Shown here in pieces: positions 4,617 through 43,131 of a stretch of DNA of 43,295 nt (position 1 is its first letter; each line of letters begins with the position of its first letter). The notes beneath the pieces were generated by a model, which saw only the letters and a program-made list of their open reading frames with translations, was not told where the DNA came from and ran no database searches. Position numbers and translations under genes: made by a program. Source of the stretch: Candidatus Omnitrophota bacterium (GTDB taxonomy: Bacteria; Omnitrophota; Gorgyraeia; Zapsychrales; Fredricksoniimonadaceae); assembly GCA_903836515.1 (NCBI GenBank), contig CAILQW010000029.1:1-43295 (forward strand), read 5' to 3'.

Positions 4617-6890
4617 TCATGACAAGCGTGCATCCTTGAGCCGCAGGGCATTACCGATCACGGACACAGAACTGAAACTCATGGCAGCTCCGGCGATAAC
4701 CGGACTCAAGAGGATGCCAAAGAATGGGTACAGTATACCTGCCGCAACAGGGATTCCCAGAAAATTATAGAAGAAAGCAAAGAAAAGATTCTGGCTGATG
4801 TTCCGCATGACCGCGCGCCCCAGGCGCAAGGCCTTGACGATACCGTCGAGATTCCCCTTCACCAGGGTTATGCCGGCACTCTCCATGGCAATATCGGTCC
4901 CCGTTCCCATGGCCACGCCCACATCCGCCGCAGCGAGCGCCGGCGCATCATTGATGCCGTCCCCGGCCATCATGACCACCGCACCCATGGCCTTAAACTC
5001 CCTGACGATCTTTTGCTTGTCACCGGGGCTAAGCGCGGCCCTGACATCATCGATCCCCAGCCCCCTGGCCACGGCCGCCGCGGTTTGAAGATTATCGCCC
5101 GTCAGCATCACGATCCTCAATCCCATGGCATGCAGATCCCGCACGGCTCCGGGGGTCGACGCCTTGACCGGATCGGAAAAACCCAAAAAACCCGCGGCTT
5201 TACCGTCGATGGCAACCCAGACGATACTGTGCGCCGCATGCTGCAGCGCCAAGGCCCTTGCTCGTTGTGCCGCGGCAATGACAATCCCCATGTCTTCCAT
5301 GAAAGATTCCTGGCCGGCCATGACCACCACCCCATGATCCAGCCCCCGGACCCCGCCGCCCGTTACAGACTGAAAATTTTCCACCGGGGATGCCATTATA
5401 TTCTCTCCCGCGGCAAAGGCCATGACAGCCCGGGCCAGGGGATGCTCGCTATTCATTTCCAATGATGCCGCCACAGCCACCAGCTGGCGTCGATCCACAC
5501 CCTCCGCCGGAACACAGGCCGTCACCCGGGGCTTCCCCTCGGTCAAGGTGCCTGTCTTATCGATCAAGAGAACCGTCACACGCGAGGCATGCTCCAGGGT
5601 GGCCGCATCCCTGATCAGAATGCCGGCACGCGCCCCCCGTCCGATCCCCACCATCACCGACATGGGTGTGGCCAACCCCAGCGCGCAAGGGCACGCGATG
5701 ATCAGGACGGACATGGCATTCACCCAGGCGCTGGCCAGCCTTGAGGCAGGCGCCAGGAAAAACCATGCCGCAAACGTCACCATGGCCGCCAGGACCACCA
5801 GCGGCACAAAATATCCGGACACCGTATCCGCCAGTTTCTGGACAGGCGCACGGCTCCGCTGGGCCTGCGCTACCATCGCAATAATGCGGGATAAAAGTGT
5901 TTGCGCGCCAACCTTTTCCACACGCATTAAGAAACTCCCTGTCTGATTGACAGAAGCCCCCACCACCTTATCCCCCGTACTTTTTAAGACAGGAACCGGC
6001 TCGCCGGAGATCATGGATTCATCCACTGCGCTTTTCCCATCGATCACAACCCCGTCGACAGGGATTTTTTCTCCAGGCCTGACACGCAACACATCACCGG
6101 GGACGACCGCATCCAGAAGGACTTCCTCTTCCACGCCATCATGCCAACGGTGTGCGCCCGTTGGCGCAAGCCCCAACAAAGCCCTGATGGCCGCGCCTGT
6201 CTTGCGTCGCGCCCGGCCTTCCAGCCATTGCCCCAGAAGCACCAGCACCGTGATCACGGCCGCGGATTCAAAATATAGATGCCCTTGCACCGCCGGTAAC
6301 GCTGTGCCGTGGGACCCTATCCCCAGAAGCACAGCCACCGCACTGTACCCATACGCGGCCCCCACCCCCAGGGCAATGAGCGTGAACATATTGGGACTGC
6401 GGTGAACAAGCGACTGCCACGCCCGGCCAAAAAATATCCCCCCTGCCCAGAACACAACGACAGTGGCCAGGAGCAGTTGAAACAAAGGATTTAAGCCTGA
6501 CGGGATCAACGTGATACGACCAGACCCCATTTGATCCAGGGACAAGATCACAACGGCAACCGCCAGGACAGCCCCCATCCAAAACCGGCGCCACAGGAAG
6601 CGCTCTTCGGCCGCAGGAACATCCTCTGCGGTATATGTCTGGGGTTCAAGGGCCATCCCGCACATAGGACAATCAGCAGGATGATCCTCCACGATCAAAG
6701 GATGCATCGGACAAATATATTGGCCGCCAGGCAGGGTCCCCGCGACCACGGAACCCTGGAGCCCTGCCTGCCCCATGAATTTTTCTCGGCAATGCGCACA
6801 GCAGAAATAGAAAACCTGCCCGTCACGTTCAGCCCGGATCGCGCCGGCATCTTCCGCCACAAGCATCTGGCATACAGGGTCTATGGCCAT
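4617..6890 (-). CDS. Copper-translocating P-type ATPase with N-terminal YHS and metal-binding domains
   Basis: 757 residues. Order: a YHS domain (residues 1-45, with 'DPVCQM' and 'FCCAHC'), a heavy-metal-binding segment ('[15 protein letters not shown]', about 55-85), eight membrane helices, the CPC ion-path motif at residues 400-402, the phosphorylated aspartate D444 in DKTGTLT, the HP motif (SEHPLARA), the TGDN motif and '[10 protein letters not shown]' before the last helices. CPC marks a type 1B Cu(I)/Ag(I) pump of the inner membrane. The start is supported by AAGGAAA before ATG 6890. No metal regulator is adjacent. Silver or another soft metal remains possible. Confidence 0.9.
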
Positions 6891-7543: not shown

Positions 7544-8161
7544 TCAATAATTCTCTGCCCTGAGTTCAAAAACGGACTGCGGGTTCTGACAGGTGGGACA
7601 GGCTTTGGGCGCCTGTTTGCCCGTATGGATATACCCGCACTCACGGCAGATCCACGCCGTTTCCTCTTCTTTCACAAAAACCTTGTGTTCCTTCACATTG
7701 GCGGCAAGCTTCCTGAAACGCGCCTCATGTTCTTTTTCTATCCTGGCCACCATCCGAAACTGATTGGCGATTTTCTGAAAACCCTCTTTATCGGCGACAT
7801 CCGCGAAATGCGGATAAAGTTCGGCAAATTCTTCATGTTCCCCGTCGGCCGCCGCCACAAGATTATCATACGTGCCGGCCACAGCCCCCGCCGGATACCC
7901 CGCAACGATCTCCACCGCCTCGCCTTCCAGGAAGGCAAAAAAAATCTGGGCATGATGCTCTTCATTATGCGCCGTTTCCCTGAATAGTGCGGCGATCTGG
8001 TCAAAACCTTCTTCTTTGGCGGCCCCGGCAAACATATCGTACCTGTTACGCGCCTGTGACTCACCGGCGAACGCCTTCAACAGATTCTTTTCCGTTTCAG
8101 TGCCCTTGATAGACTTCCCGCCCTTATATGAAGTAAATTTTTCCCTCAGATCCTTCTTCAT
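7544..8161 (-). CDS. rbr: Rubrerythrin
   Basis: 205 residues. An N-terminal four-helix di-iron domain has two ExxH-type pairs ('FAGESQARNRY' and 'TAHNEEHHAQIF', then 'EHEEFA' and 'RIEKEHEARF'). A C-terminal rubredoxin domain has CRECG and CPTC at about residues 169-190. The enzyme reduces hydrogen peroxide in anaerobes. Two ATGs compete; 8161 is chosen because AGGAGG lies 8 nt away, against 2 nt for the ATG six bases earlier. It has its own promoter with a palindrome over the -10. Confidence 0.9.
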   Translation of the reverse strand: MKKDLREKFTSYKGGKSIKGTETEKNLLKAFAGESQARNRYDMFAGAAKEEGFDQIAALFRETAHNEEHHAQIFFAFLEGEAVEIVAGYPAGAVAGTYDNLVAAADGEHEEFAELYPHFADVADKEGFQKIANQFRMVARIEKEHEARFRKLAANVKEHKVFVKEEETAWICRECGYIHTGKQAPKACPTCQNPQSVFELRAENY

Positions 8162-8225
8162 GTTCATGACCTCCTGATCATATTGATCCCCAAGCATCAA
8201 CTTGATACGCAGACAGTTTCTTTAT

Positions 8226-8492: not shown

Positions 8493-8545
8493 TTGACATT
8501 TAAAAAATATAATATATGTTATATTAAACTAATAGAGATAATAGG
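8493..8545 (+). promoter_or_regulatory. Promoter of the first Rrf2 gene with candidate autoregulatory site
   Basis: TTGACA 8493-8498, 16-bp spacer, TATGTT 8515-8520, then an ATATTAAA..AATAGAGAT..ATAG site directly downstream (8521-8545). The same layout and a near-identical downstream site precede the second Rrf2 gene at 15122-15175, which argues for a conserved operator. The plus-strand gene starts at 8553. Confidence 0.6.
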
Positions 8546-9276: not shown

Positions 9277-10593
9277 TCACGCATCTTTCCCTGATGACTT
9301 CTCAAAAGCCTGTCCGATATCCCAAAGAAGATCATCGATGTTTTCTGTCCCGACGGAAAACCTGATCTGCTCAGGCTTCACCCCCGCCAGGCGCTGTTCG
9401 GCCTCGGTGAGCTGGCCGTGCGTGACCGTGGCCGGATGCACCACCAGCGACTTGGAATCGCCCACGTTGGCGAGAAATGAAAAGATCTTCAGGCTTTCGA
9501 TGAATTTTTTCGCGCGCGCCAGGCCTCCCTTGACGCCAAAAGCCAGGATCGCCCCTGGGCCTTTGGGAAGATACTTCTTGGCTAAAGCATGATAGGGACT
9601 GGTCTTCAAGCCCGGATAATTGACCCATTCAACCTCAGGATGTGCGGCCAGATATGCCGCGATACGCTGGGCGCTCGCCACCTGACGCTCCAGCCGGAAC
9701 GAAAGCGTTTCCAGTCCCTGGAGGAACAAGAACGCGTTAAAGGGGCTCATGCACGCGCCAAAATCGCGCAGGTAATGCAAGCGCACCTTGATGATGTAGG
9801 CGATATTCCCCGCCCCGGGATAATTGCCCCAACGATCCCAGTGCACAAACCCGCTGTACGCAGGATCGGGTGTCGTGAAATCCGGGAACTTGCCGCTCTT
9901 GGACCAGTCAAAATTCCCGCCGTCAACGATCAGCCCGCCGATGCTGGTTCCGTGGCCGCCGATATACTTCGTGGCCGAATGGACAATGATGTTGGCACCG
10001 TAATCGAAAGGCCGGAAAAGATAGGGCGTCCCGAACGTGTTATCCACGATCAACGGGATGCCGTTCTCCTGCGCAATGCGGGCTACTTTCTCGAAATCAA
10101 TGATGTTGATGTCCGGATTCCCGATGGTTTCGATGAAAATGGCGCGCGTCTTTTCATTGATTGCTTTTCTGAAATTCTCAGGATCGCTGGGGTCCACCAG
10201 CCGGGTTTTAACACCATGTTTGGGCAAGGTATTCACGAATAAATTGAAGCTCCCGCCATAAAGCGTTTTGGCCGCAACGATCTCGTCGCCAGTATGCGTG
10301 ATATTCAAAATCGAATACGCCGTGGCTGCAGACCCCGACGCCAGTGCCAGTGCCCCAGAACCGCCTTCCAGGGCTGCGATGCGGTTTTCCAGGACTTCGC
10401 AGGTCGGGTTGGTGATCCGGCTGTAATCGAAACCGAACTCCTCCACCGAGCTTATCAAACGTGCCTGTTCGAAATTCTTGAACACAAACGATGTTGTCTG
10501 GTAGATGGGAACCGCCCTGGCGCCCGTTGTCGGATCAGGCACCTGCCCCGCATGGACCTGCAATGTGTCAAAATGCAATTTTCTTTCGCTCAT
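9277..10593 (-). CDS. metY: O-acetylhomoserine aminocarboxypropyltransferase (homocysteine synthase)
   Basis: 438 residues, the long form (about 430) that separates MetY from 380-residue cystathionine enzymes. The PLP lysine is K209 in HSATKYIGGHGTS, with 'DNTFGTPY' upstream and 'VVHPATVTHGQL' downstream as the substrate-binding end. It makes homocysteine from O-acetylhomoserine and sulfide or a sulfur carrier, in the cytoplasm. It overlaps the AhpD-like gene by 4 nt and leads the HPr-like gene. A second MetY lies at 41414-42712. Confidence 0.9.
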   Translation of the reverse strand: MSERKLHFDTLQVHAGQVPDPTTGARAVPIYQTTSFVFKNFEQARLISSVEEFGFDYSRITNPTCEVLENRIAALEGGSGALALASGSAATAYSILNITHTGDEIVAAKTLYGGSFNLFVNTLPKHGVKTRLVDPSDPENFRKAINEKTRAIFIETIGNPDINIIDFEKVARIAQENGIPLIVDNTFGTPYLFRPFDYGANIIVHSATKYIGGHGTSIGGLIVDGGNFDWSKSGKFPDFTTPDPAYSGFVHWDRWGNYPGAGNIAYIIKVRLHYLRDFGACMSPFNAFLFLQGLETLSFRLERQVASAQRIAAYLAAHPEVEWVNYPGLKTSPYHALAKKYLPKGPGAILAFGVKGGLARAKKFIESLKIFSFLANVGDSKSLVVHPATVTHGQLTEAEQRLAGVKPEQIRFSVGTENIDDLLWDIGQAFEKSSGKDA

Positions 10594-12646: not shown

Positions 12647-14089
12647 TTATCCATTAAACCGCGCATTAATAGCGAGAGAATCCTGGCGAATACCTTCGAC
12701 AACATGCGGCCTGAACGCATGAATGATCGTGATCCATGCAACTCCCGCCACCCAAAGGCCGAGGAAAATATACGGCAGCAGGTTGTACGGCGCCGGCGGT
12801 ACAGGATAAATATTCCCCAGGATCGCCAGGCCCAGCGCGATGACTGCTACGGCTGACGTGAGAATATGCTGGGCTTTCAACTCGCCACGGCGCTTGAGAT
12901 AAACCGGCGCCGCGATCGAAATGATGATGTAGGTCACAATAAAGCCGAGTGTGGCGATAGTGCCGACCCAGCCGTAAATATCAAAATCACCCACACCGCG
13001 CAGCGACAGGATCGCCGCAGGAACGAAGGCCAATACTGACGCGATCGTGACAGCGATATGCGGCGTTTCATTCTTGTGATGCGCGTCCCCGGCGGAAGCA
13101 TGGAATATGCCGTGACGGCCCATCAGGAAAAGTACACGTGCTCCTGCATTGATGCTCGCCAGAACACAGGCAAAGAAACTGATCACAGCACCAATATCAA
13201 TGAACAGCCCGATGGCCGAAAGTCCGGCCCGATCCGCCAGGACATTGAGCGGTGCGGTACTTTTATCCAGCGTTTCGGTGTGCCCCTGGAAACCAACCAC
13301 CTGGGCATACGAAGAAACCACGAACAAGGCCCCCACGATCAAGGCACTGCGAACAATGGCCCTGGGGATACTGTGCAACGGCTCCCTGGCTTCTGATCCG
13401 AGGGTGGCCGCGCTTTCAAAACCGACAAAACTGAAAATAGCCAGCACCAGACCGCCGCGCAAGGCGTCCAGGCTGGTTCCCTTCAGTGTCAGCTGATCCC
13501 AGTCCAGATTGAATCCATGGCGGTACAATGTCACCCCCACGAGCAGAAGAATTAAAGACACCGAAGCGAATTCAAGCCCCAGCGACAAACGCGCTGAAAG
13601 TTTGATGTCTTTATACGCCACATACCAGGCCGCCAGCACGCTCAGTCCGATCAACAGGACCGCCGGGATCTGAAAACCGAACACGCTCTTTAAAAACACG
13701 TTGGAATAATTGGAGAAACCGCTTGTTACCGCGGAAGCACAGCCGATATAGGCAATGAGAAGCGCCCAGCCTGTCACAGAACCCCAGAACGGCCCCAGCC
13801 CGGTAATAATATAAGAGTAGAAGGACCCGGGTGACGCGGAACGCCGGGCAAATTGATTGATACTGGAGGCCACCAGCAAAATGCTGACCGTGGCGATCAG
13901 GTATGCCAGCCATGTGCTCGCGCCAGACACCGCAAACACCAGGGGAATAACCACGGTTGGCGTCGCCGTGGGAGCAATATTGGCGATCGATTGTCCCAGC
14001 GTTTCCAGCGGGCTTAAGGTCGCGGACTTCAGCCCATAGGAATGTCCCCCGCGATTCACTTCTTGTTGCGATCTTGCTTTAGCACTCAT
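12647..14089 (-). CDS. APC-superfamily amino acid permease (copy 1)
   Basis: 480 residues with about twelve hydrophobic helices. The first helix region has 'GQSIANIAPTATPTVVIPL' and is followed by 'ARRSASPGSFYSY', typical of APC amino acid/cation symporters. The start at 14089 (MSAKARSQQ) is chosen from AGGAAAAAGAG and from alignment to the paralogue at 22080-23519, which is very similar over its length. It is the first gene of operon I, behind an operator-controlled promoter and a structured leader. The substrate may be a sulfur amino acid, from context only. Confidence 0.85.
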   Translation of the reverse strand: MSAKARSQQEVNRGGHSYGLKSATLSPLETLGQSIANIAPTATPTVVIPLVFAVSGASTWLAYLIATVSILLVASSINQFARRSASPGSFYSYIITGLGPFWGSVTGWALLIAYIGCASAVTSGFSNYSNVFLKSVFGFQIPAVLLIGLSVLAAWYVAYKDIKLSARLSLGLEFASVSLILLLVGVTLYRHGFNLDWDQLTLKGTSLDALRGGLVLAIFSFVGFESAATLGSEAREPLHSIPRAIVRSALIVGALFVVSSYAQVVGFQGHTETLDKSTAPLNVLADRAGLSAIGLFIDIGAVISFFACVLASINAGARVLFLMGRHGIFHASAGDAHHKNETPHIAVTIASVLAFVPAAILSLRGVGDFDIYGWVGTIATLGFIVTYIIISIAAPVYLKRRGELKAQHILTSAVAVIALGLAILGNIYPVPPAPYNLLPYIFLGLWVAGVAWITIIHAFRPHVVEGIRQDSLAINARFNG

Positions 14090-14122
14090 ACTCTTTTTCC
14101 TTTCCTCTTTGTGTGTGTAAAA

Positions 14123-14182
14123 TAAAAAAGCCCAAAACACACCCGGTCTTTCCGGGAATATCTTGGGCTTCCAGATATCTGG
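14123..14182 (-). terminator. Leader RNA of operon I: CCAG hairpin plus terminator
   Basis: Read on the minus strand, CCAGATATCTGG (14171-14182) is followed at once by a hairpin from AGCCCAAGATATTCCCGG to CCGGG..TTTTGGGCT (14130-14168) and a run of U (14123-14129). This sits about 40 nt before the permease start and 110 nt or more after the promoter, so it looks like an attenuator. The same arrangement precedes the permease at 23519, the DUF2292 gene at 31268 and (without the U-run) the giant protein at 20484. It does not show S-box or T-box landmarks. Confidence 0.65.
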
Positions 14183-14293
14183 TACGCCTGTCTATTCTGG
14201 ACGATCGAAACTCACTATAACCAAAAAACTTACCCTCTTACTACTCTCCAGGAACAATCTTTGTCTTAGCTTTCCTTGAGGAATCGCTAATCA

Positions 14294-14346
14294 CTACTAT
14301 TCCAGTAGGAATGGTAGAACTATAACACGCCGCAACAACTTGTCAA
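14294..14346 (-). promoter_or_regulatory. Operon I promoter and Rrf2-type operator
   Basis: Minus strand: TTGACA (plus 14341-14346), 16-bp spacer, TATAGT (plus 14319-14324), then directly a 24-bp palindrome CTACCATTCC-N4-GGAATAGTAG (plus 14294-14317). Spacing and operator position match those of three other operons here. A repressor bound there would block open complex formation. The span 14090-14417 otherwise holds the leader and a terminator, with no gene. Confidence 0.65.
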
Positions 14347-14362
14347 GAATTTTTTACATGTT

Positions 14363-14397
14363 AAAAAAGAGCCCGCCATTTTCAGACGGGCTCTTTT
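14363..14397. terminator. Bidirectional-looking intrinsic terminator
   Basis: An 11-bp stem AAAAGAGCCCG/CGGGCTCTTTT (14365-14375 and 14387-14397) with an 11-nt loop and T-runs on both sides. It lies 20 nt past the stop of the Met-rich gene and just upstream of the operon I -35, so it insulates the two transcripts. Confidence 0.8.
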
Positions 14398-14417
14398 ATC
14401 ATAAAATTAACACGCTA

Positions 14418-14888
14418 TTACTTCGACGAACCACAGCAAACAGGCGTATTGTTCATCATCATGCAGCAGGTGCAACCGGATTCCATCATGGTCATCATAC
14501 ATGTGCAGCAATCCTGGATCATCTTGGCGCACATCATGTCGCCGCTGGTGCACATCATGCACATTCCGTCCTTGGTCATTTCCATCTTGCACATACCCAT
14601 CATCATATTGCAGGTCATCATGGTCATGCCATTCATCATCATCTGAAAACTGACCATGCCGCCGTTCAGCATCGTGCCAAGATTCTGCATCATGGAGGCC
14701 GCCATCTCATCGGAAGCCATGCACATGATCTTCATGCCGTCCTTCATCTTTTCCATCTTGAACATGCAGCGCGGGATCATCATCATGTCCATCGTTCCCA
14801 TGGGCATCCCTGACGGCGCCATGCTGGGCATGCCCATCATGTTGCGCCCCATTGTCATCATCTGATTCATTTTCATTTCCGATTTCAT
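14418..14888 (-). CDS. Methionine- and cysteine-rich protein
   Basis: 156 residues from ATG 14888 (site GGAGAAGGAAG). By my count about 52 are Met and about 15 are Cys, so over 40% of residues carry sulfur. There are runs such as DMMMIP and NMMMGMCKMEM, and a Cys-rich end (DCCTCMM, GCTCCMMM, VCCG). It has no signal peptide; a longer N-terminal extension to 14957 lacks a ribosome site. It has its own promoter and terminator. Two readings: a soft-metal (copper/silver) buffer, or a sulfur amino acid reserve that suits the surrounding island. I know no named family for it. Confidence 0.75.
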   Translation of the reverse strand: MKSEMKMNQMMTMGRNMMGMPSMAPSGMPMGTMDMMMIPRCMFKMEKMKDGMKIMCMASDEMAASMMQNLGTMLNGGMVSFQMMMNGMTMMTCNMMMGMCKMEMTKDGMCMMCTSGDMMCAKMIQDCCTCMMTMMESGCTCCMMMNNTPVCCGSSK

Positions 14889-14985
14889 CTTCCTTCTCCT
14901 TTTATCTACCACTGGTATGGTAAGAATTTTTTTCGGTGATAAACATATAGCGTTCATGACTATTTTGTTTCACCGACATATTAGA

Positions 14986-15014
14986 ATATTAACGAACAAC
15001 AGCCATGATGTCAA
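14986..15014 (-). promoter_or_regulatory. Promoter of the Met-rich gene
   Basis: Minus strand: TTGACA (plus 15009-15014), 17-bp spacer, TAATAT (plus 14986-14991). The operator seen after the other -10 boxes of the island is not obvious here. The transcript would carry a leader of about 90 nt with an imperfect ACCATACCAGTGGTAG hairpin. Confidence 0.6.
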
Positions 15015-15121
15015 GGAATATTTGTCGTAAGTTGTTTATTTTCAATACTTTATATGCTATATCTCCACTAGGAGAAGTAGATTATTAATCGTTCTAAGAA
15101 AATAAATCCAGAAATCCTCAC

Positions 15122-15175
15122 TTGACAAATCCGATAAGAAAATATATACTATATTAAATCAATAGAGATTATAGT
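15122..15175 (+). promoter_or_regulatory. Promoter of the second Rrf2 gene with candidate operator
   Basis: TTGACA 15122-15127, 17-bp spacer, TATACT 15145-15150, then ATATTAAATCAATAGAGATT and ATAG (15151-15174). The downstream site is nearly the same as at 8521-8545. Its reverse complement (ATAATCTCTATTGATTTA) resembles the operator of the 43131 promoter (ATAATCTCGATAGAGTTA). Confidence 0.6.
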
Positions 15176-15182
15176 GTAACAT

Positions 15183-15623
15183 ATGAAAATAACACACAAA
15201 GGTGATTACGCGTTAAAAGCAGTTCTGGACATGTCCGTGCATTACGATGAAGGGTTGGCGACGATTCAGGAGATCGCCAAACGCATTGATGCCCCGGGCA
15301 AGTTCCTGGAACAGGTATTACTGGAATTAAAGAAAGGCGGCTTTATCGAAAGCCGTCGAGGAAAAATTGGAGGATACCAGTTATCCAGACCCCCTCAGCA
15401 GATCACGCTAGGTCAGGTCATTCGCTTCGTCGATGGGCCGCTCGAACCCATCGCCTGCATCAATGAAGGCTACTCCGACTGCGGCGATCTTCATCAATGC
15501 GCATTCCGCCCCATCTGGAGGGACGTGTTTCAGGCAACGTCAAACATTGTCGACAACATTACCTTTGCGGATCTGGCCAAGAAGATTGAAGCCGCATCTA
15601 AAGTGCCAACATATTCAATTTAA
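15183..15623 (+). CDS. Rrf2-family Fe-S-type transcriptional regulator (copy 2)
   Basis: 146 residues, with the same helix-turn-helix, wing ('SRRGKIGGYQLSRP') and C92/C100/C106 triad as the protein at 8553. It probably carries an Fe-S cluster and binds the palindromes downstream of the -10 boxes in this island. The two genes also share promoters, so each may regulate both. A small gene follows 11 nt downstream. The duplication may separate two operator classes: the ATTCC type (operons I, II) and the CTC-GATA-GAG type (operons IV, V). Confidence 0.85.
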   Translation: MKITHKGDYALKAVLDMSVHYDEGLATIQEIAKRIDAPGKFLEQVLLELKKGGFIESRRGKIGGYQLSRPPQQITLGQVIRFVDGPLEPIACINEGYSDCGDLHQCAFRPIWRDVFQATSNIVDNITFADLAKKIEAASKVPTYSI

Positions 15624-15634
15624 AGGTGAACCGC

Positions 15635-15859
15635 ATGTCGCGAATCGATAGATACTTCCACCAAAAATCTGACAACTTCACATCCGATCCCTCCTTGGAC
15701 TCCTTTGTGATCTGCCCAGCCGCCTTGTTCCCTAAAATGAGCCATGAGCAATTCGCGGCAACACAGCAAATCTACAAAGCGGCCTACGAAAAGGCCTGGG
15801 CAAAAGTCTATGGGAATGGATCAAATCCCGATGACTTCGACCTGGGCAGCGGCATTTAA
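15635..15859 (+). CDS. Small uncharacterised protein downstream of rrf2
   Basis: 74 residues from ATG 15635 (AAAGGTG upstream; an in-frame GTG at 15626 is a weaker choice). I do not recognise it. It is hydrophilic with one predicted helix ('SHEQFAATQQIYKAAYEKAW') and an acidic end 'PDDFDLGSGI'. It follows the second Rrf2 gene by 11 nt and is probably co-transcribed. Its TAA overlaps the TAA of the convergent giant gene. Confidence 0.5.
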   Translation: MSRIDRYFHQKSDNFTSDPSLDSFVICPAALFPKMSHEQFAATQQIYKAAYEKAWAKVYGNGSNPDDFDLGSGI

Positions 15860-18800
15860 CCCGCTGATAATGCCGACGCTGTTGTTAATTCAGATAATAT
15901 CGGCATATTTATCGGTGTCATCGGCGCAATATTCCTGATAACCGGCTCCAGACCTTGAATATTGATCATCGCTGGATCCTGTAATTGCAACGGCAGCGGC
16001 ATCCCCCCGCCATCAACCTTAATACGCAAATACTCATCCCTAAGGTCAATACCGCCATTAACCAACTCCGCCGAATCAGGCGCAGAATGCCCCCGATAAA
16101 TAACCGATAATGCCGACAGCAACGGCGCCCGCGTCGCGATGGATGTAAACGTGCGCCGGCCAAATAACTTTGTCGCCCACGCCTCTCTGGGAGCAACAAT
16201 AACAGCAGCCACATTCTTTCCGTAAGGATTGTTGAATCTGTCCAAAACAATATCAGCATCCTTTGATTTGATCGGATGAAAGCCCTCTATAAATCCGCGA
16301 GAATTAACCACCGCAAGACAGCTATGCCCCGCCTTGGCCCTGATCGCCCGGAACAGGCGTGTTTTTCCATCCGGCTTGTCGAGAAACTCGTCAACAAGAA
16401 CAAAATCCGTATCGCGATGGATCCTCTCGAGAAAATTACGGCCCTCGGCATCGGGCGTAATCACGGAAAACTCAACGCGGCGCTCTCCTTTTAACAAAAA
16501 TAATCCTTCATAAATATTCTTAAACTTTCTGGCCCTCTCATCCACCGCAGAGCCTTGTTGCGCGATCACGGCAATACGCACCGGACCGGACTTCCTGGTG
16601 CTTTCATCCTGAAAAGCAACACTTTCCCCAAGGATATCAAACGCCGCTTCAAACGTTGGAACGGAAACCCCTTGCACATCCTGATTCACCCCGGGCAGTA
16701 CGCCCGCCTCTATGGAAGCAACCGTATATTCCGCCGAACGGGCATCCGGATTGCCCAAACGGCCATAACCGCCGTACAACCCCTTGACGACGGGCGACGA
16801 TCTCTCCTTTGACGGCTTCCCGGCTTCCAACGGCGCCTTGAATATCTCGGCGAGAACATCCGCATCCTGCACCACATCCGCATTGGACCTGCCGGCACCG
16901 GGTGTCACCGCGTACAAATTTCCGCTCAACGGCCCCCAAAACACATTCGAAATAACCGCCAGCGTTTTCGGGGAATACCGGTCCAGGCGCGTTGCCTCAT
17001 GAATGATCCGAAGAGACAACAGCGTATCGTCCAGACGTTTTTTCGACTTGCCAAAATTCAACACAGATTTAATACCCAGCGGCCATGACGTTGCTGCCCG
17101 CTCAAGGTCCCCAATAGCTTTCTCGATCTTGGGTTCTGCCAGGAATTCTCCTGAACCCTCGTCTTCACCAACTTCAGGGAAAAGACGTCCGACGTGCTCG
17201 ACGGTCATGCCGTCAGGCTGTACAACAGGATGCATCAAATACTTTCTCAGCTCGGCCAACGGAAAAGAACCTTCCCTGCCTTTAAACAATCTCAGCAGGC
17301 GCAAGGCCGTGTCGAAATCATTGATGATATCCTTTGAATCTTCGATGCCGACGGAAATACGGACATCCGCAACATTCATGCCCATCGACGGGAGTTTCTG
17401 CTTGGCTTCTTCCGGCATTGTAGAAGCGACTCCCGCCAGAGGCAGCTGGACCTGGGTCCTGGCCTCACCAAGGCTGACAGAATGCTTTGGCACACGCAGG
17501 AACGTCAGGATCTTGATAAACAGTTTGGCCGACTCCAGGCCGTCTTTAATCGTAAACTTGATCATGTTCCCGTAGTTCTCCCCCTCCGCCTGCCTTAAGG
17601 TAATATCAAACTGCGGATGGTCCGGATCCCCCGGATAACTGAGCGACGATACAACATCCTGTTGCTGTTTTAACCACTTGACCAGATTGCGGGTATTATC
17701 CAAAGATGTCCGGTACCGCTCAAAGAACGTCGATACCCCGTATTCAAAAATATTCCTGGCATCATCCTCATGTATCTGCGCCGAGCGCACATACTCCAGA
17801 TCCGCGGCAATCTCCTTCTTGGCGACGGCCACTGTCCCAAACGCATTGCCGGTGCCCAGCATCTTGGTCACGACCTGAATAACAATATCCACACCGAACT
17901 TGAGCGGCTGCTGTCCCGCCGGGGTGGCAAAAGCGCCATCAAAGATGGTCAAGGCCCGCGGCGCGTTGGCTTTGACGGTCCTGACAATTTTTTCAATATC
18001 CCAAACTTTAAGCGGAGGATTATTGGGCGATTCAAAAATAACGGCCACCGTGTTCTCGTCAAGAACGCCGGGACGGCTGCGGTCAGAAACACCTACCAGC
18101 TCTTTATCTGGATCCGTCACATAACGGACATCCAAACCGTATTTTCTATAAAACTCCAGATTCGCATCGGTACCGCCATACGCCGAACGGATCAACACAA
18201 TATTGGGATTAAGAATATCTTTATTACGCAAGAAGAGATACCTGAGCACGTCCGCCATACCCGACACCCCGGAGACGGAATTGACGCCTCTATATTCCCG
18301 ACGCGCCTGTTCATTGCCGCTCAGCCATTGTGTTTCAAGAAAAGCAATGGCCAACTCTACCTTTTTATTAATATCCAACGACGCATCCTGAAGACGCGCG
18401 AGATAATTTTTGAACGCTGTCTCACGATCAGCATCCTGCGGATACGGGATGCCGGAAGACGGATTCTTTCCATTCGAAGAAAGCACCTCACGATCCGGCG
18501 CTGTCACAAAAATACTGTCGGTGTTTTCCAGTCTTCCGGATGCTGTCAGTGTTGTCGTTACGGCCGCCGTTGCCGATACAACAGCCACAACATCAGGCAG
18601 CGCGATTTCCATGGGCGGCTGAACCGCCTCCTTTTGCACCCCTGCGATTCCCGGCGCAACATACTCCTTTTTAAGCGCATCCAGCCGATGCCAGGCTTCT
18701 TTGGGGTGCATCGGCGCTACCTGGCGGCTATCGCGATGTTCGCGCAGCCTGTCTGAAAGCACCTCTTCGGACACCACGATCACCCCCTTAGGGGCTTCAT

Positions 18801-20484
18801 TCTTGTTCTGGCTGCCATTTCCGGAGATCAATGGATCCGGCTCAAGACGAGCATCGCTGAACGCCAGGAGCGTTTGAGGGCTTTTTTCCCCTGCCATCCG
18901 GGACACTTCCTGAAAACGTTCCGATTTTGAAAATGGGAAAAACACAATCGCCGTTTGGTATGATAAGGCACCCTGCAACGCGTCCAAACTCCTGACAATA
19001 ATCACCTCGGTTGAATTCCGGGCGGCATAGTGCACAAATAAACTGTCCGCTGGCGCATCCTCGGGTATATAAAAAATGACTTCTTTTTTCCCGGAAGAAA
19101 CTTCCAAGAACTCCTGGGCCATTTGGATCAAATTATCGACCGCCGATACCCTGGCCGCATAACTGACCCCGTCAAACCTGCCTTCGGCCCCCTGAGAATG
19201 AACTTGCGCTGTCAACTGTTCCACAGCCCGCACTGTTTCATGGTTTAGATCCTCACGCCGGGCCACAAGATCAGCATGTGTCCTTTCGATCGCCCTGACC
19301 AAATCGGTATCAACGATCTCGCGCCCAGGCTTGGAGAGAAATTCATTCCCTGCTCCCTGACTCGCGTCCGATATAATTTCCGGGGCCACACCCGCCATAC
19401 CGCCGGAGAAATACTTTCTCGGCGCCGTCTCATGGGTTAACGGGTCTGCCTCGTCCTTGATATAGTTGAACACCCCGACTTTAAAGGCTTCCAGGTACCT
19501 CTCATAAATCTTTTCTTTGGATTTCGGATCATTCGCCTCGACACCGGCGACTTTGTTCTTGTCTGAATACACCTGGCTCAAAAGACTTTCCTTGAGGGTC
19601 TTCTTGAACCATGTTGCCAGGATCATGGCCGTGTAAATCTGACGCAGCGGCGCAAAGTTCTCCCCTTCGTTCACTTCCTTCTCAATGATCGGGATAATGA
19701 TCTCACGGACAGCATTGACCGTAAATTCCCTGGTTTCCGCGGGAGCCGAGGATTCCGCCATGTCCTTCTGATGGGACATGGCTACGTCCCCGGCGGGAGC
19801 CGAGGATTCCGCCATGTCCTTCTGATGGGACATGGCTACATAATCGCTTTCCAGCATGACTTTCAAATGGCTTTTGACAAGGAATGCGGCTCCATCTTTC
19901 TCATAAACTTCTGCCGCATCAGCCCTGATCCAGATCTTGTTAAAGGTATCAACCGGAATATCGGTCGTCCCCAGCTTGTCATAGGCCTGAGCATAAACCT
20001 TCTGCCAAAAGCCTCGGCCCACATCTTCCTCGGGATACATCAATGAGGCGGTGAACTGTTTAAGCACATAGTCTTGCCCCAACAATTCCTGCCCGGTAGC
20101 GGTTTTCGCGAAATTGTCACCGATGATACGCTGCGCTTCATAAGGTGACAGATTGACCCACACATCCTTGTTGGGGATCGTCAGCGCTGCCAGAAAATGT
20201 TTGATCAACTTTCGATATTCACCCTTCTTTCGATCATCGCCAAGGGCGGCATCTCCCTTGTCCATGACAAAATAAAAATGGAACGGATCTTGCCGATCCA
20301 CTTTCAACCCCACGATCTGGACAGGATTAAAAGCGCCCGTCGGATGCAGTCGTACGCCGGGAACCGGCAACGGCAGAGCCACCTGCGCATAACCGGACTG
20401 CACCGGTATGGCGCTCAACATCGCTGCAATAAGTGCGGTGGCGATAACCTTAAATCCATGGTTTTTCTTTGCATCCCGATACAT
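15856..20484 (-). CDS. Giant secreted protein with an embedded cystathionine-synthase-like PLP domain
   Basis: 1542 residues from ATG 20484 (AAAAGGAG upstream). A signal peptide covers about residues 1-34 ('ATALIAAMLSAIPVQSGYAQ'), then a proline-rich start and a domain I associate with Omnitrophota. An 18-residue unit repeats in tandem near residues 215-250. A Cys/Met-metabolism PLP-like domain spans about 640-1060. It keeps 'AYGGTDANLEFYRKYG', 'FDGAFATPAGQQPL', a lysine at about 874 in VVTKMLGTGNAFG where PLP would attach, and a C-terminal 'ISVGIEDSKDIINDF'. The last ~480 residues are unknown. It is the third gene of operon II with CBS. Exported PLP enzymes are rare; enzyme or former enzyme is undecided. 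Confidence 0.75.
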   Translation of the reverse strand: MYRDAKKNHGFKVIATALIAAMLSAIPVQSGYAQVALPLPVPGVRLHPTGAFNPVQIVGLKVDRQDPFHFYFVMDKGDAALGDDRKKGEYRKLIKHFLAALTIPNKDVWVNLSPYEAQRIIGDNFAKTATGQELLGQDYVLKQFTASLMYPEEDVGRGFWQKVYAQAYDKLGTTDIPVDTFNKIWIRADAAEVYEKDGAAFLVKSHLKVMLESDYVAMSHQKDMAESSAPAGDVAMSHQKDMAESSAPAETREFTVNAVREIIIPIIEKEVNEGENFAPLRQIYTAMILATWFKKTLKESLLSQVYSDKNKVAGVEANDPKSKEKIYERYLEAFKVGVFNYIKDEADPLTHETAPRKYFSGGMAGVAPEIISDASQGAGNEFLSKPGREIVDTDLVRAIERTHADLVARREDLNHETVRAVEQLTAQVHSQGAEGRFDGVSYAARVSAVDNLIQMAQEFLEVSSGKKEVIFYIPEDAPADSLFVHYAARNSTEVIIVRSLDALQGALSYQTAIVFFPFSKSERFQEVSRMAGEKSPQTLLAFSDARLEPDPLISGNGSQNKNEAPKGVIVVSEEVLSDRLREHRDSRQVAPMHPKEAWHRLDALKKEYVAPGIAGVQKEAVQPPMEIALPDVVAVVSATAAVTTTLTASGRLENTDSIFVTAPDREVLSSNGKNPSSGIPYPQDADRETAFKNYLARLQDASLDINKKVELAIAFLETQWLSGNEQARREYRGVNSVSGVSGMADVLRYLFLRNKDILNPNIVLIRSAYGGTDANLEFYRKYGLDVRYVTDPDKELVGVSDRSRPGVLDENTVAVIFESPNNPPLKVWDIEKIVRTVKANAPRALTIFDGAFATPAGQQPLKFGVDIVIQVVTKMLGTGNAFGTVAVAKKEIAADLEYVRSAQIHEDDARNIFEYGVSTFFERYRTSLDNTRNLVKWLKQQQDVVSSLSYPGDPDHPQFDITLRQAEGENYGNMIKFTIKDGLESAKLFIKILTFLRVPKHSVSLGEARTQVQLPLAGVASTMPEEAKQKLPSMGMNVADVRISVGIEDSKDIINDFDTALRLLRLFKGREGSFPLAELRKYLMHPVVQPDGMTVEHVGRLFPEVGEDEGSGEFLAEPKIEKAIGDLERAATSWPLGIKSVLNFGKSKKRLDDTLLSLRIIHEATRLDRYSPKTLAVISNVFWGPLSGNLYAVTPGAGRSNADVVQDADVLAEIFKAPLEAGKPSKERSSPVVKGLYGGYGRLGNPDARSAEYTVASIEAGVLPGVNQDVQGVSVPTFEAAFDILGESVAFQDESTRKSGPVRIAVIAQQGSAVDERARKFKNIYEGLFLLKGERRVEFSVITPDAEGRNFLERIHRDTDFVLVDEFLDKPDGKTRLFRAIRAKAGHSCLAVVNSRGFIEGFHPIKSKDADIVLDRFNNPYGKNVAAVIVAPREAWATKLFGRRTFTSIATRAPLLSALSVIYRGHSAPDSAELVNGGIDLRDEYLRIKVDGGGMPLPLQLQDPAMINIQGLEPVIRNIAPMTPINMPILSELTTASALSAG
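19741..19840. repeat. In-frame 54-bp tandem duplication inside the giant gene
   Basis: A 54-bp unit (19741-19794) is repeated immediately (from 19795, about 46 bp identical), adding two copies of an 18-residue unit DVAMSHQKDMAESSAPAG. The unit holds GCCATGTCC and GGACATGGC arms 7 bp apart, so it is itself a hairpin-forming repeat inserted in coding DNA without breaking the frame. Confidence 0.75.
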
Positions 20485-20507
20485 AGCCACTCCTTTTAAA
20501 ATTATGA

Positions 20508-20561
20508 AGCCCAAAATACTCCGGAATCATTCCAGAATATTTTGGACTTCCAGTTATCTGG
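20508..20561 (-). promoter_or_regulatory. Intra-operon copy of the leader element, without a U-run
   Basis: Minus strand: CCAGATAACTGG (20550-20561) followed by a near-perfect ~19-bp hairpin from AGTCCAAAATATTCTGGAA to TTCCGGAGTATTTTGGGCT (20508-20549). It matches the leaders at 14123-14182 and 23551-23609. It is not followed by U residues; the ribosome site AAAAGGAG comes 8-15 nt later instead. It lies in the 104-bp gap between the CBS gene and the giant gene and may control translation or processing of the latter. Confidence 0.6.
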
Positions 20562-20588: not shown

Positions 20589-21959
20589 TTACACATCTCT
20601 TTTCCTCTTCAGGTAATTCAACAAATCGATCCTTGTGACGACACCATAAAACCTTTCCTTATCCTGAATGATCGCGGTGTAACCTATTTTCAAGATCGCC
20701 ACCAGGCTTTTCAGGTCATCTTTGGGTTCGAGAATCTCCAGGTCTTCCGTCATGAATTTTGAAACTTTCTCCTCAAACTTATGCGTATCCAGATCTTCCA
20801 ATGCCAAAAGGACGTCTGACTCATCAATGATGCCGATCACTTTCCCATTTTCAATCACAGGAAGCTGGGAAATATCATATAATTTCATTCTGGAATACGC
20901 CGTCCCAATCGAATCCTGCAGCTGGACAGAAACGACACTATTTGAACTGTACGTCCGGGTAATAATATCCCGCAAATCTCCCTCTTCTTTTCTGTCCAGC
21001 AATCCCTGCTCCAGCAGCCAATGGTCGTTATACACCTTGGAGAGATACTTGTTCCCGCTGTCGCAGACAAAGGTCACAATATTCTTGGGAACAGTCTGTT
21101 CTTTGGCATAGCGTATCGCTGCGCCGATAAGAACCCCTGTCGACGAACCAGCCAAAATCCCTTCTTTTCTCAACAGATCCCTCAATATCCCAAAGGACTC
21201 TTTATCCGAAATTGAATACGCCGCCCTGACCAAAGAAAAATCTGCCTGAGAAGGAATAAAATCTTCACCTATCCCTTCGATGCGCCAACTGCCGGCGGCA
21301 CCAAACTTGCCGGTCTTGACGTGATCAACCAGTATCGAACCTTCAGGGTCAGCCAGAATAAACTCTACCCTCGGGTGCACTTTCTTAAAATAATCGGTTA
21401 ACCCCCTGATCGTCCCAGCTGAACCGACACCCACAGATATGGCATCAACCTGATGCCCCATCTGTTCCCAGATCTCGGGCCCTGTCGTGGTGCTGTGGGC
21501 CAACGGATTAGCCGGATTGTTGAACTGGTCGACAAAGAACGAATGGGGGATCTCCCGGGAAAGTCTCAGCGCATAATCCTGATAATACTCCGGATGCCCC
21601 TTCTCCACGTCGGAACGCGTCATGACGATCTCGGCACCCATGGCTTTCAGGCACGCGATCTTTTCCTGACTCATCTTGTCGGGGATCACCAACAAAAGCC
21701 GGTACCCCTTCCTGGCCGCGACCAAGGCAAGGCCAAGCCCCGTGTTCCCGGCTGTCGCTTCGATGAGCGTATACCCTTTCTTGATCTTCCCTTCCCGCTC
21801 TGCAGCCTCGATCATGGACAGGCCGATCCTGTCCTTGATGGCTCCTGACGGATTCAAATTTTCAAGCTTGAGAAAAAGGCGGCACACCCCAACGTCAAAA
21901 CTTTTAACTTCGACGATCGGCGTGTGCCCGATCGACTCCAGGATATCCTTATAAACCAT
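20589..21959 (-). CDS. cbs: Cystathionine beta-synthase with two CBS domains
   Basis: 456 residues. Residues 1-320 are a cysteine-synthase-fold PLP domain with K42 in PSGAIKDRIG, 'TAGNTGLG' and 'GVGSAGTIRG' phosphate loops and 'GSSTGVLIGAA'. Residues 335-456 are a pair of CBS domains ('QLPVIENGKVIGIIDESDVL', 'IIQDKERFYGVVTRID') that usually bind adenosyl ligands such as SAM. It condenses serine with homocysteine, or acts as a cysteine synthase. It is the second surviving gene of operon II. A metY remnant fused to its upstream flank shows a deletion placed it here. Confidence 0.88.
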   Translation of the reverse strand: MVYKDILESIGHTPIVEVKSFDVGVCRLFLKLENLNPSGAIKDRIGLSMIEAAEREGKIKKGYTLIEATAGNTGLGLALVAARKGYRLLLVIPDKMSQEKIACLKAMGAEIVMTRSDVEKGHPEYYQDYALRLSREIPHSFFVDQFNNPANPLAHSTTTGPEIWEQMGHQVDAISVGVGSAGTIRGLTDYFKKVHPRVEFILADPEGSILVDHVKTGKFGAAGSWRIEGIGEDFIPSQADFSLVRAAYSISDKESFGILRDLLRKEGILAGSSTGVLIGAAIRYAKEQTVPKNIVTFVCDSGNKYLSKVYNDHWLLEQGLLDRKEEGDLRDIITRTYSSNSVVSVQLQDSIGTAYSRMKLYDISQLPVIENGKVIGIIDESDVLLALEDLDTHKFEEKVSKFMTEDLEILEPKDDLKSLVAILKIGYTAIIQDKERFYGVVTRIDLLNYLKRKRDV

Positions 21960-22079: not shown

Positions 22080-23519
22080 TTATATCCCTTCCCCAAATCG
22101 CGCATTGATCGCAAGGGAATCCTTACGAATATCCTCAACCACGTTAGGCTGAAACTTATGAATAATGGCAATCCAGGCCACGCCGGCCAGCCAGATCCCC
22201 AGGAAAATATACGGCAATATGTTATACGGCGCCGGAGGAACGGGATAAATATTCCCCAGAATGGCCAACCCTAACGTAAAAACAGCCAACCCCGAGATCA
22301 CCAGATGTTGAACTTTCAACTCACCACGATGTTTGAGATAAACCGGTGCCGCAATAGATATAATGATGTAGGTAACGATAAACCCGAGTGTCGCGATCGT
22401 CCCCACCCAGCCGTAGATATCAAAATCGCCTGTTCCATTGAGCGAAAGGATCACCGCTGGAATAACTGCCAGAATGGAGGAGATCGTGACGGCGATATGC
22501 GGTGTTTCATTTTTATGGTGCGCATCCCCGGCGGCAGCATGGAACAACCCGTGGCGGCTCATTAAAAACAATACACGCGCTCCAGCATTGATGCTTGCCA
22601 GGACGCACGCAAAGAAACTGATGATCGCGCCGATATCGATCAGCAAGCCGATAGAAGAAAGGCCGGCCCGGTCAGCCAGAACGCTCAAAGGAGCGGTGCT
22701 TTTATCCAGCGTCTCGGCATGTCCCTGAAATCCAACCACTTGAGCATAAGAAGAAACAACGAAGAGTGCACCAACGATCAAAGCACTGCGCACAATCGCC
22801 TTCGGGATACTGCGCAACGGATCTTTAGCTTCTGAACCAAGCGCCGCGGCACTCTCAAATCCGACAAAACTGAAGATCGCAAGAACCAAGCCGCCGCGCA
22901 GCCCGTCGAGACCCGCCCCCTTGAGTGTCAGCTGATCCCAGTCCAACTGCCATCCATAGCGATAAAGTGTCACGCCAACCAGAAGGACAATAAGGGATAC
23001 TGAAAAGAACTCCAACGCGAGAGATACGCGCGTTGAAAGCTTAATATCCTTATAGGCGATATACCAGGCGATCAAAACGCTGGCAGCGATCAGAATGGCC
23101 GCCGGAACCTTAAATCCGAATACACTACTAAGGAAGACATTGGCATAGTTCGAAAATCCAGATGTCACCGCAGAAGCGCAGCCAATATAGGCGATCAAAA
23201 GCGCCCAACCGGTCACTGAACCCCAGAACGGCCCAAGGCCTGTGATCGCGTAAGAGTAGAACGAACCTGGAGATGCCGAGCGCCGCGCAAACTGGTTAAT
23301 ACTTGACGCCACCAGCAAGATGCTCACCGTGGCAAACAAATACGCCAGCCAGGTGGCCCCACCCGACAAAGCAAACACCAAGGGGATAACAATGGTAGGT
23401 GTCGCTGTGGGCGCGATATTGGCAATCGACTGGCCCAGCGTTTCCAATGGTGTCAGTGTGGCGGACTTCAGGCCATAAGACTGGCCACCTCGATTTACTT
23501 CCTTTGATTTAGCACTCAT
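22080..23519 (-). CDS. APC-superfamily amino acid permease (copy 2)
   Basis: 479 residues, twelve hydrophobic helices, close paralogue of the permease at 12647-14089 in every segment ('GQSIANIAPTATPTIVIPL', 'ARRSASPGSFYSY', 'GWALLIAYIGCASAVTSGF'). It leads operon II behind the same type of promoter, operator and leader. GGAAAAAGGT precedes ATG 23519. Two nearly identical permeases heading two operons of the same regulon point to segmental duplication. Confidence 0.87.
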   Translation of the reverse strand: MSAKSKEVNRGGQSYGLKSATLTPLETLGQSIANIAPTATPTIVIPLVFALSGGATWLAYLFATVSILLVASSINQFARRSASPGSFYSYAITGLGPFWGSVTGWALLIAYIGCASAVTSGFSNYANVFLSSVFGFKVPAAILIAASVLIAWYIAYKDIKLSTRVSLALEFFSVSLIVLLVGVTLYRYGWQLDWDQLTLKGAGLDGLRGGLVLAIFSFVGFESAAALGSEAKDPLRSIPKAIVRSALIVGALFVVSSYAQVVGFQGHAETLDKSTAPLSVLADRAGLSSIGLLIDIGAIISFFACVLASINAGARVLFLMSRHGLFHAAAGDAHHKNETPHIAVTISSILAVIPAVILSLNGTGDFDIYGWVGTIATLGFIVTYIIISIAAPVYLKHRGELKVQHLVISGLAVFTLGLAILGNIYPVPPAPYNILPYIFLGIWLAGVAWIAIIHKFQPNVVEDIRKDSLAINARFGEGI

Positions 23520-23550
23520 ACCTTTTTCCTTTCCTTTGTTTTCTTCAAAT

Positions 23551-23609
23551 AAAAAAGCCCAAAATAAATCCGGGTTTGCCGGAAATATTTTGGGCCTCCA
23601 GATGTCTGG
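23551..23609 (-). terminator. Leader RNA of operon II: CCAG hairpin plus terminator
   Basis: Minus strand: CCAGACATCTGG (23598-23609), then a hairpin from GCCCAAAATATTTCCGG to CCGGATTTATTTTGGGC (23557-23595), then six U (23551-23556). The stem is conserved with the operon I leader while the loop differs, which supports a working structure. Confidence 0.68.
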
Positions 23610-23671
23610 TCAGCCTGCCTATTTGTTACACCTTGAACACCAAAAATGCCGCGCCGTGATTTGATTAATCT

Positions 23672-23724
23672 CGACTATCCTTGTAGGAATAGTAGAAATA
23701 TACCACGCCTGTTGTAATTGTCAA
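23672..23724 (-). promoter_or_regulatory. Operon II promoter and Rrf2-type operator
   Basis: Minus strand: TTGACA (plus 23719-23724), 16-bp spacer, TATATT (plus 23697-23702), then CTACTATTCC..GGATAGTCG (plus 23672-23695). This is the same layout as at 14294-14346, with one base inserted in the palindrome centre. No gene is seen in 23520-23801. Confidence 0.65.
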
Positions 23725-31388: not shown

Positions 31389-31435
31389 TCGGTCACGGCA
31401 ACAGGATCTAACGATACGTTACGTTTAATCCATAC

Positions 31436-31484
31436 TAACTCTATCGAGTTAATGGAAATATATCATGTAAATACATTTTGTCAA
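31436..31484 (-). promoter_or_regulatory. Operon IV promoter with TAACTC-N4-GAGTTA operator
   Basis: Minus strand: TTGACA (plus 31479-31484), 16-bp spacer, TATATT (plus 31457-31462), then a perfect 6-4-6 palindrome TAACTC-GATA-GAGTTA (plus 31436-31451). Same geometry as the other island promoters but a different palindrome class, shared with 43083-43131. Confidence 0.65.
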
Positions 31485-41413: not shown

Positions 41414-42751
<1,338 letters not shown>

Positions 42752-43050: not shown

Positions 43051-43082
43051 TACTTCATTGATGTTAGCGCTCTAATTCCCAC

Positions 43083-43131
43083 TAACTCTATCGAGATTAT
43101 GGAAATATACCATGCCGTATGGATTTGTCAA
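43083..43131 (-). promoter_or_regulatory. Operon V promoter with CTC-GATA-GAG operator
   Basis: Minus strand: TTGACA (plus 43126-43131), 16-bp spacer, TATATT (plus 43104-43109), then TAATCTC-GATA-GAGTTA (plus 43083-43099). It is nearly the same as the operon IV promoter and also resembles the sites in the two rrf2 promoters. 42973-43295 otherwise holds no gene. Confidence 0.65.

Follow-up and report, generated by a model that had tools for sequence, protein, structure and literature searches.

The DNA analysed here (43,295 nucleotides from Candidatus Omnitrophota, hereafter the window) encodes a small protein, one third of it methionine, which belongs to an undescribed family common to Omnitrophota and Planctomycetota. 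Members are linked to Rrf2-family regulators and to genes of cysteine and methionine metabolism, and it is very probable that the gene takes part in sulfur amino acid physiology in some form. Its protein may act as a cytosolic reserve or sink of methionine and cysteine under an Rrf2 regulator, an interpretation to which we give nearly even chances. The gene and its expression signals are the following.

14418..14888, minus strand: gene of the Met/Cys-rich protein (156 aa), a Met-rich N-terminal tail followed by two tandem repeats (~41-93 and 100-154)
14986..15014, minus strand: sigma-70-like promoter of this gene, TTGACA-17-TAATAT, with TTGACA conserved in the related loci L004 and L005
14889..14979, minus strand: leader RNA of ~91 nt with two conserved hairpins (14933-14976 and 14906-14923)
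~14365..14398, minus strand: intrinsic terminator, AAAGAGCCCGTCTGAAAATGGCGGGCTCTTTT, with an equivalent in L005

The reading frame starts with an ATG at 14888, ends with a stop at 14418 and begins with MKSEMKMNQMMTMGRNMMGMPSMAPSGMPMGTMDMMMIPRCMFKMEKMKDG; AGGAGAAGGAAG precedes the ATG. For 14418-14888 the first-pass annotation had given 156 residues with about 52 Met and 15 Cys; these counts (33% Met, 9.6% Cys) and the coordinates are exact, the strand being minus. The protein contains no His, Trp or Tyr and two Phe, and the next highest Met fraction among the open reading frames of at least 100 aa in the window is 5.9%. In agreement with the same annotation, which had seen no transport signal, an N-terminal signal was not apparent in a hydropathy scan of the first 60 residues (19-residue mean at most 0.53). 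A promoter and a terminator of its own had likewise been claimed; the TTGACA-17-TAATAT match and the terminator hairpin were both found, and they occupy the same places in the relatives. Two other Omnitrophota carry the gene, with 87% identity in the same genus and 96% in another genus of the family, and the 5' regions of all three align with conservation of TTGACA, the leader hairpins and the ribosome-binding site. The leader has a structure z-score of -2.7. Its hairpin at 14906-14923 sits just 5' of the ribosome-binding site, and translational control is possible. The transcription unit is monocistronic, since the amino-acid permease gene that comes next in this orientation is preceded by a separate promoter match (14346-14319). 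A role of the frame as leader peptide or attenuator was rejected because no co-oriented gene lies between the frame and its terminator. An Rfam scan across the window gave no match at gathering score, and permissive matches near 14360 were discarded as terminator-like chance matches.

A His-rich frame of 157 aa on the plus strand (14340-14813) overlaps the gene and represents the complement of the Met codons (ATG/CAT). The Met run could in principle be a by-product of this antisense frame or of low-complexity DNA, a reading that retains practically no probability: dN/dS of the minus frame against the window copy is 0.048 for L004 and 0.20 for L005, homologues with 35-60% identity occur in another phylum, and start, ribosome-binding site, promoter and terminator are all conserved. 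These results refute the non-gene reading, and the minus frame 14888-14418 is a real gene under selection.

Sequence searches of Pfam, NCBIfam and PDB returned no match to the family; in Pfam-A no family was hit by the window protein at E up to 10, and none convincingly by five relatives. Plasmids and viral contigs yielded no homologue. An initial search for related loci retrieved two Planctomycetota (58% and 55% identity), and planctomycete homologues share 35-60% identity with the window protein. The gene was not found in 89 other relatives searched, and a profile search of 384 Omnitrophota genomes had just two positives, the genome of the window and the relative from the other genus. In Planctomycetota, profile searches were positive for five of 392 genomes across the phylum of G092, for 10 of 170 in one order (a count that includes L036, a different, weakly similar protein) and for 16 of 45 in another order. 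Patchy in Omnitrophota and wide in one planctomycete order, this distribution may point to a transfer from Planctomycetota.

The alignment comprises the Met-rich N-terminal tail and the two repeats, with the pattern PxC...E(K/N)xxxGxKxxCxxxDxxxxxxxQNLC...NG in repeat 1 and CExTxDGxCxxCTSGDxxCxxMIQxCC...GCxCC...NxxPVCC in repeat 2. An AlphaFold model of low confidence (mean pLDDT 46), used for the repeat pattern of secondary structure alone, shows strand-strand-helix-strand-strand twice; a PDB fold search with it gave no match at E <= 0.001. We infer a fold with two beta-beta-alpha-beta-beta repeats in tandem, densely filled with Met and Cys.

Both sulfur residues are exchanged within the family while their sum is held at 21-45%. 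Omnitrophota members have 33% Met and 10-12% Cys; in those from the order of G092 the values are ~18-26% Met and 16-20% Cys. On the same scaffold, one clade of other planctomycetes combines 2-7% Met with 19-25% Cys, most Met being replaced by Cys and aliphatic residues and the Cys being clustered in CC and CxC motifs. Where the window protein has Met, this clade shows Cys at 22% and Leu, Val or Ile at 33% of the positions, and where the window protein has Cys the clade retains it at 92%. Of the two sulfur residues Cys is thus the better conserved, and in the alignment Met seems to be layered onto hydrophobic or Cys positions. In the tree, Omnitrophota members form one clade (support 95/100), as do the Cys-rich members (88/89).

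The gene is placed in the window among the following sulfur amino acid and transport genes, and further homocysteine synthase(s), MetX, CysK and gamma-synthase-like proteins are encoded as well.

15183..15623, plus strand: Rrf2-family regulator with a Cys triad (CINEGYSDCGDLHQC), divergent from the Met-rich gene; position conserved in L004 and L005
12647..14089, minus strand: APC-type amino-acid permease with an operator box in its promoter
22080-23519: second amino-acid permease with an operator-like box over the predicted +1
20589..21959, minus strand: cystathionine beta-synthase-like protein with CBS domains (TIGR01137, E 1.5e-121, below the curated cutoff)
9277..10593, minus strand: homocysteine synthase (O-acetylhomoserine sulfhydrylase)

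Some neighbours have features of their own. Both permease genes share the leader ACCAGA-ATCTGGA-GCCCA...CCGG...CCCGG...TTTTGGGCTTTTTT (14080-14200 and 23530-23640, minus strand), which has a terminator-like hairpin immediately 5' of the start codon and has no Rfam match; its sequence suggests transcription attenuation or an undescribed riboswitch. Very large proteins of 1373-1744 aa (window 15856-20514, L004 1260-6494, L005 2748-6869) combine an Omnitrophota-type N-terminal domain with PLP-dependent cystathionine-synthase-like regions, and that of L004 seems to contain a serine acetyltransferase-like part too. A CopA-type ATPase with a YHS domain (4617-6890) and a rubrerythrin-like gene (7544-8200) lie at the edge of the sulfur island.

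Across the family, an Rrf2 gene is found within ~1.1 kb in 17 of 25 loci, versus 0.06 expected by chance on the basis of 1-8 Rrf2 genes per genome. Counted conservatively by lineage, the linkage occurs in three of seven (P ~3e-7, with per-lineage chances rounded). In all three Omnitrophota this gene is divergent from the Met-rich gene, at a distance of ~295 bp in the window and 270-450 bp in the two relatives, the latter taken from ORF calls. In the order of G092, an Rrf2 protein of a 136-aa type without the Cys triad is encoded divergently upstream (L006, L061, L063, L066, L067, L069, L070 and L072-L076). A second Rrf2 gene, with the Cys triad, is located downstream and tail to tail in seven loci (L063, L066, L068, L070 and L072-L074), in most of which the family gene is hence flanked by both types; the triad of the downstream protein is a possible iron-sulfur ligand.

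The sulfur genes attached to these regulators differ between the branches of the family. The Cys-rich members L023, L024 and L031 have Rrf2 and then cysK beside them, and cysK is adjacent in L028 and L030; the assignment relies on TIGR01139 above cutoff in L023, L028, L030 and L031 and, in the genome G870 that contains L024, on a TIGR01136 match above cutoff. The Met-rich members L067 and L069 are divergent from a cluster of Rrf2, cystathionine beta-synthase and cystathionine gamma-synthase/lyase genes, and in G975 and G976 Rrf2 and CBS-like genes are located 10-14 kb from the family gene. The dominant sulfur residue thus matches the neighbouring pathway, Cys with cysK and Met with transsulfuration, though the independent events behind this are few, all Cys-rich members falling in a single clade. 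The first-pass annotation had placed the gene among those of sulfur amino acids and proposed to see whether homologues sit beside sulfur or copper genes; Rrf2, cysK, CBS and gamma-synthase/lyase neighbours, with no copper exporter linked in other genomes, support the sulfur setting. This linkage of an Rrf2 regulator with cysK or transsulfuration genes corresponds to that in Rrf2/CymR-type sulfur regulons, and the CymR regulon of Firmicutes likewise joins its regulator to cysK and amino-acid uptake genes. CymR is among the best-scoring named relatives of the adjacent Rrf2 proteins, but these fall well below the CymR equivalog cutoff, and we know of no Met/Cys-rich structural protein in the CymR regulon.

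Two operator-like motifs (no strand assigned) occur in the window at the following positions.

15057..15080: palindromic operator-like box CTATATCTCCACTAGGAGAAGTAG, between the divergent Rrf2 and Met-rich genes, at ~-78 to -101 of the predicted Met-rich start
14294..14317: copy of the 24-bp palindromic box, covering the predicted +1 of the amino-acid permease 12647-14089
23672..23695: copy of the 24-bp palindromic box, covering the predicted +1 of the second permease 22080-23519
15151..15174: second operator-like motif ATATTAAATCAATAGAGATTATAG, at the Rrf2 promoter
8521-8544: copy of the second motif, at an Rrf2 paralogue
31432-31455: copy of the second motif, between metX and a gamma-synthase-like gene
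43079-43102: copy of the second motif, upstream of the homocysteine synthase at 42712

The palindrome has the approximate consensus CTACNWNTCCTANNRGRNWANTNG. In a matrix scan of the window its three sites scored 24.7-27.4, the next best site 10.8 and shuffled controls up to ~13; as the matrix was built from the three sites and relatives, their own scores are high by construction, and what is informative is how far the next best site falls below them and where the three are placed. An approximate palindrome pattern, one position off in its right arm, matched just these three sites in the whole genome, but its backwards control gave 16 chance matches, so the matrix scan is the result relied upon. 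The box between the Rrf2 and Met-rich genes is recognisable in both Omnitrophota relatives, and most planctomycete family promoters had no significant match to this matrix. The second motif, learned solely from the promoters of two Rrf2 genes and the two met-gene sites of this window, recurs 5' of the planctomycete family gene in L006, L061, L069 and L076 (reached by 0 of 60 shuffles each) and at the promoter of L067 (1 of 60); the other seven planctomycete family promoters gave no good score. Together, these shared sites point to a common regulation of the Met-rich gene, the permeases and the homocysteine-synthesis genes.

In the CymR paradigm, cysteine biosynthesis genes are repressed under ample sulfur (PMC5480029). 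The adjacent Rrf2-type (CymR-like) regulator would wire the Met/Cys-rich gene into sulfur amino acid metabolism, and the protein would be made when cysteine or methionine is plentiful. One bound regulator, with its box upstream of the Met-rich promoter and over the +1 of both permeases, could shut import and favour the sulfur-rich protein. Such placement allows opposite action by a single regulator and hence fits a protein made under plentiful sulfur, the direction of regulation being inferred. Each chain would lock 52 Met and 15 Cys in an inert form and proteolysis would give them back; in Met-rich lineages, the adjacent transsulfuration enzymes may turn the released Met into Cys. Several observations argue against storage. 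If the gene were simply co-repressed with the permeases, the protein would be produced when sulfur is short, contrary to what a store requires. The conserved positions other than Met and Cys, along with the clusters of Cys-Cys motifs, suggest that the protein has a particular fold and ligand beyond the needs of a store, the correlation of residue and pathway stems from few events, and there is a weak similarity to a domain of metal-resistance islands.

This domain is represented by the distant match L036, which has the same order of two repeats without richness in Met or Cys and whose domain (640-1110) is fused to a methyltransferase and a DsrE-like domain. Judged by their N-termini, L036-type relatives are mostly exported. 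In L078 the domain (1237-1926) lies beside a CusA-like RND efflux gene, and on plasmids it lies beside mercury, arsenic and cadmium resistance genes, its neighbours including mercury reductase and cation P-type ATPase genes; as an uncharacterised two-repeat domain it recurs in Hg/As/Cd and RND-efflux islands of plasmids and planctomycetes (L036, L078 and L080-L084). Profile comparison between the family and this type gave P 0.0035-0.011 and an hhalign probability of 4-9%, collinear and in register over 99 columns, with a real score of 21.9, where the highest among 120 controls with shuffled columns was 17.8. Statistically this relationship is insecure, and the domain was not accepted as ancestor but retained as a weak lead.

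The main rival is a metallothionein-like buffer of soft metals (Cu(I), Ag, Hg, Cd), in which the Met and Cys of the two repeats would form thioether and thiolate sites and the link to cysteine genes would reflect cysteine supply for the protein and for thiols under metal stress. We regard it as unlikely, yet as the most serious of the alternatives. Its best argument is the collinear profile match to the exported domain of the metal islands, which itself is not rich in Met or Cys. Clusters of Met and Cys, the near absence of His, Trp and Tyr, and the CC and CxC motifs of the Cys-rich members also favour it, and high Cys, few aromatics or His and a cytosolic location are traits of bacterial metallothioneins and Csp proteins, some of the latter being cytosolic too. 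The metallothionein pattern of 15-30% Cys with CC/CxC motifs and few or no aromatics or His is seen in the Cys-rich planctomycete members (19-25% Cys) but not in the window protein, with its 9.6% Cys and 33% Met. Unlike these, the family lacks a Pfam or NCBIfam match, is Met-dominated in Omnitrophota, has predicted beta-beta-alpha-beta-beta repeats instead of a four-helix bundle, and neighbours Rrf2 and Cys/Met genes. A CopA-type ATPase gene 7.5 kb off in the window also speaks for this rival, but it has no counterpart in any other locus examined, and the consistent neighbour is Rrf2, not a metal-sensing regulator such as CueR, CsoR, CopY, ArsR (SmtB/ArsR) or MerR. SilE and PcoE, periplasmic silver and copper sponges, share Met-rich repeats and the sponge-like proposal; the window protein, however, has neither His nor an export signal. 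SilE, in comparison, contains ten conserved His plus a pair of His/Met motifs, and in the absence of metal it is disordered (PMC5008109).

An oxidant sink, whose surface Met and Cys would be sacrificed to oxidants and then regenerated by methionine sulfoxide reductases and thioredoxin, would make the protein a cytosolic counterpart of MrpX/BcrX (MXKDX peptide, MsrPQ; Azospira, Brucella). These share small size, extreme Met content, a single gene beside its own regulator and a possible role as redox sink, and the one third Met, the rubrerythrin-like gene of the window and the MrpX precedent speak for such a role. So does L006, where msrA lies beyond the Rrf2 gene, two genes from the family gene, and encodes an MsrA with an N-terminal signal-like stretch; msrA was beside no other locus examined. 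MrpX resides in the periplasm, is governed by a sigma/anti-sigma pair and has msrPQ (yedYZ) as linked genes (PMC8315932, PMC4623255), whereas no such genes were recognised beside the family gene, and the window protein lacks an export signal by hydropathy and an NCBIfam match, contains Cys as well and lies beside Rrf2 and Cys/Met genes. With Cys-rich members having just 2-7% Met, we consider this role improbable. Still less probable is a function in buffering or carrying sulfane sulfur or sulfide on persulfidated Cys, protective at high sulfide and feeding cysteine synthase; the cysK adjacency of the Cys-rich clade and the DsrE-like fusion of the weakly related L036 domain agree with it, but the Met-dominated composition remains unexplained because Met carries no sulfane sulfur.

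Bacteria bank nitrogen, carbon and phosphorus, and to our knowledge no ribosomally made protein has the role of banking methionine and cysteine. A functional analogy to the proposed reserve is offered by the sulfur-storage proteins of plant seeds (Met-rich zeins and albumins), a polypeptide reserve of Met and Cys (e.g. PMC3420316) with which no sequence relationship is expected and for which the literature searched held no bacterial counterpart. Tentatively, and with somewhat less confidence than for a reserve or sink as such, we propose a dedicated bacterial family for sulfur amino acid storage, a ribosome-made counterpart of cyanophycin that is controlled by Rrf2 and swaps Met for Cys according to the coupled sulfur branch. 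The family is conserved and regulated and consists of up to 45% sulfur residues. Whichever function holds, reserve, metal buffer or redox sink, the regulator next door gives a genetic handle on it, and complete planctomycete genomes seem to exist for some hosts. With this family, two phyla whose sulfur regulation has been little studied gain a candidate Rrf2 sulfur regulon.
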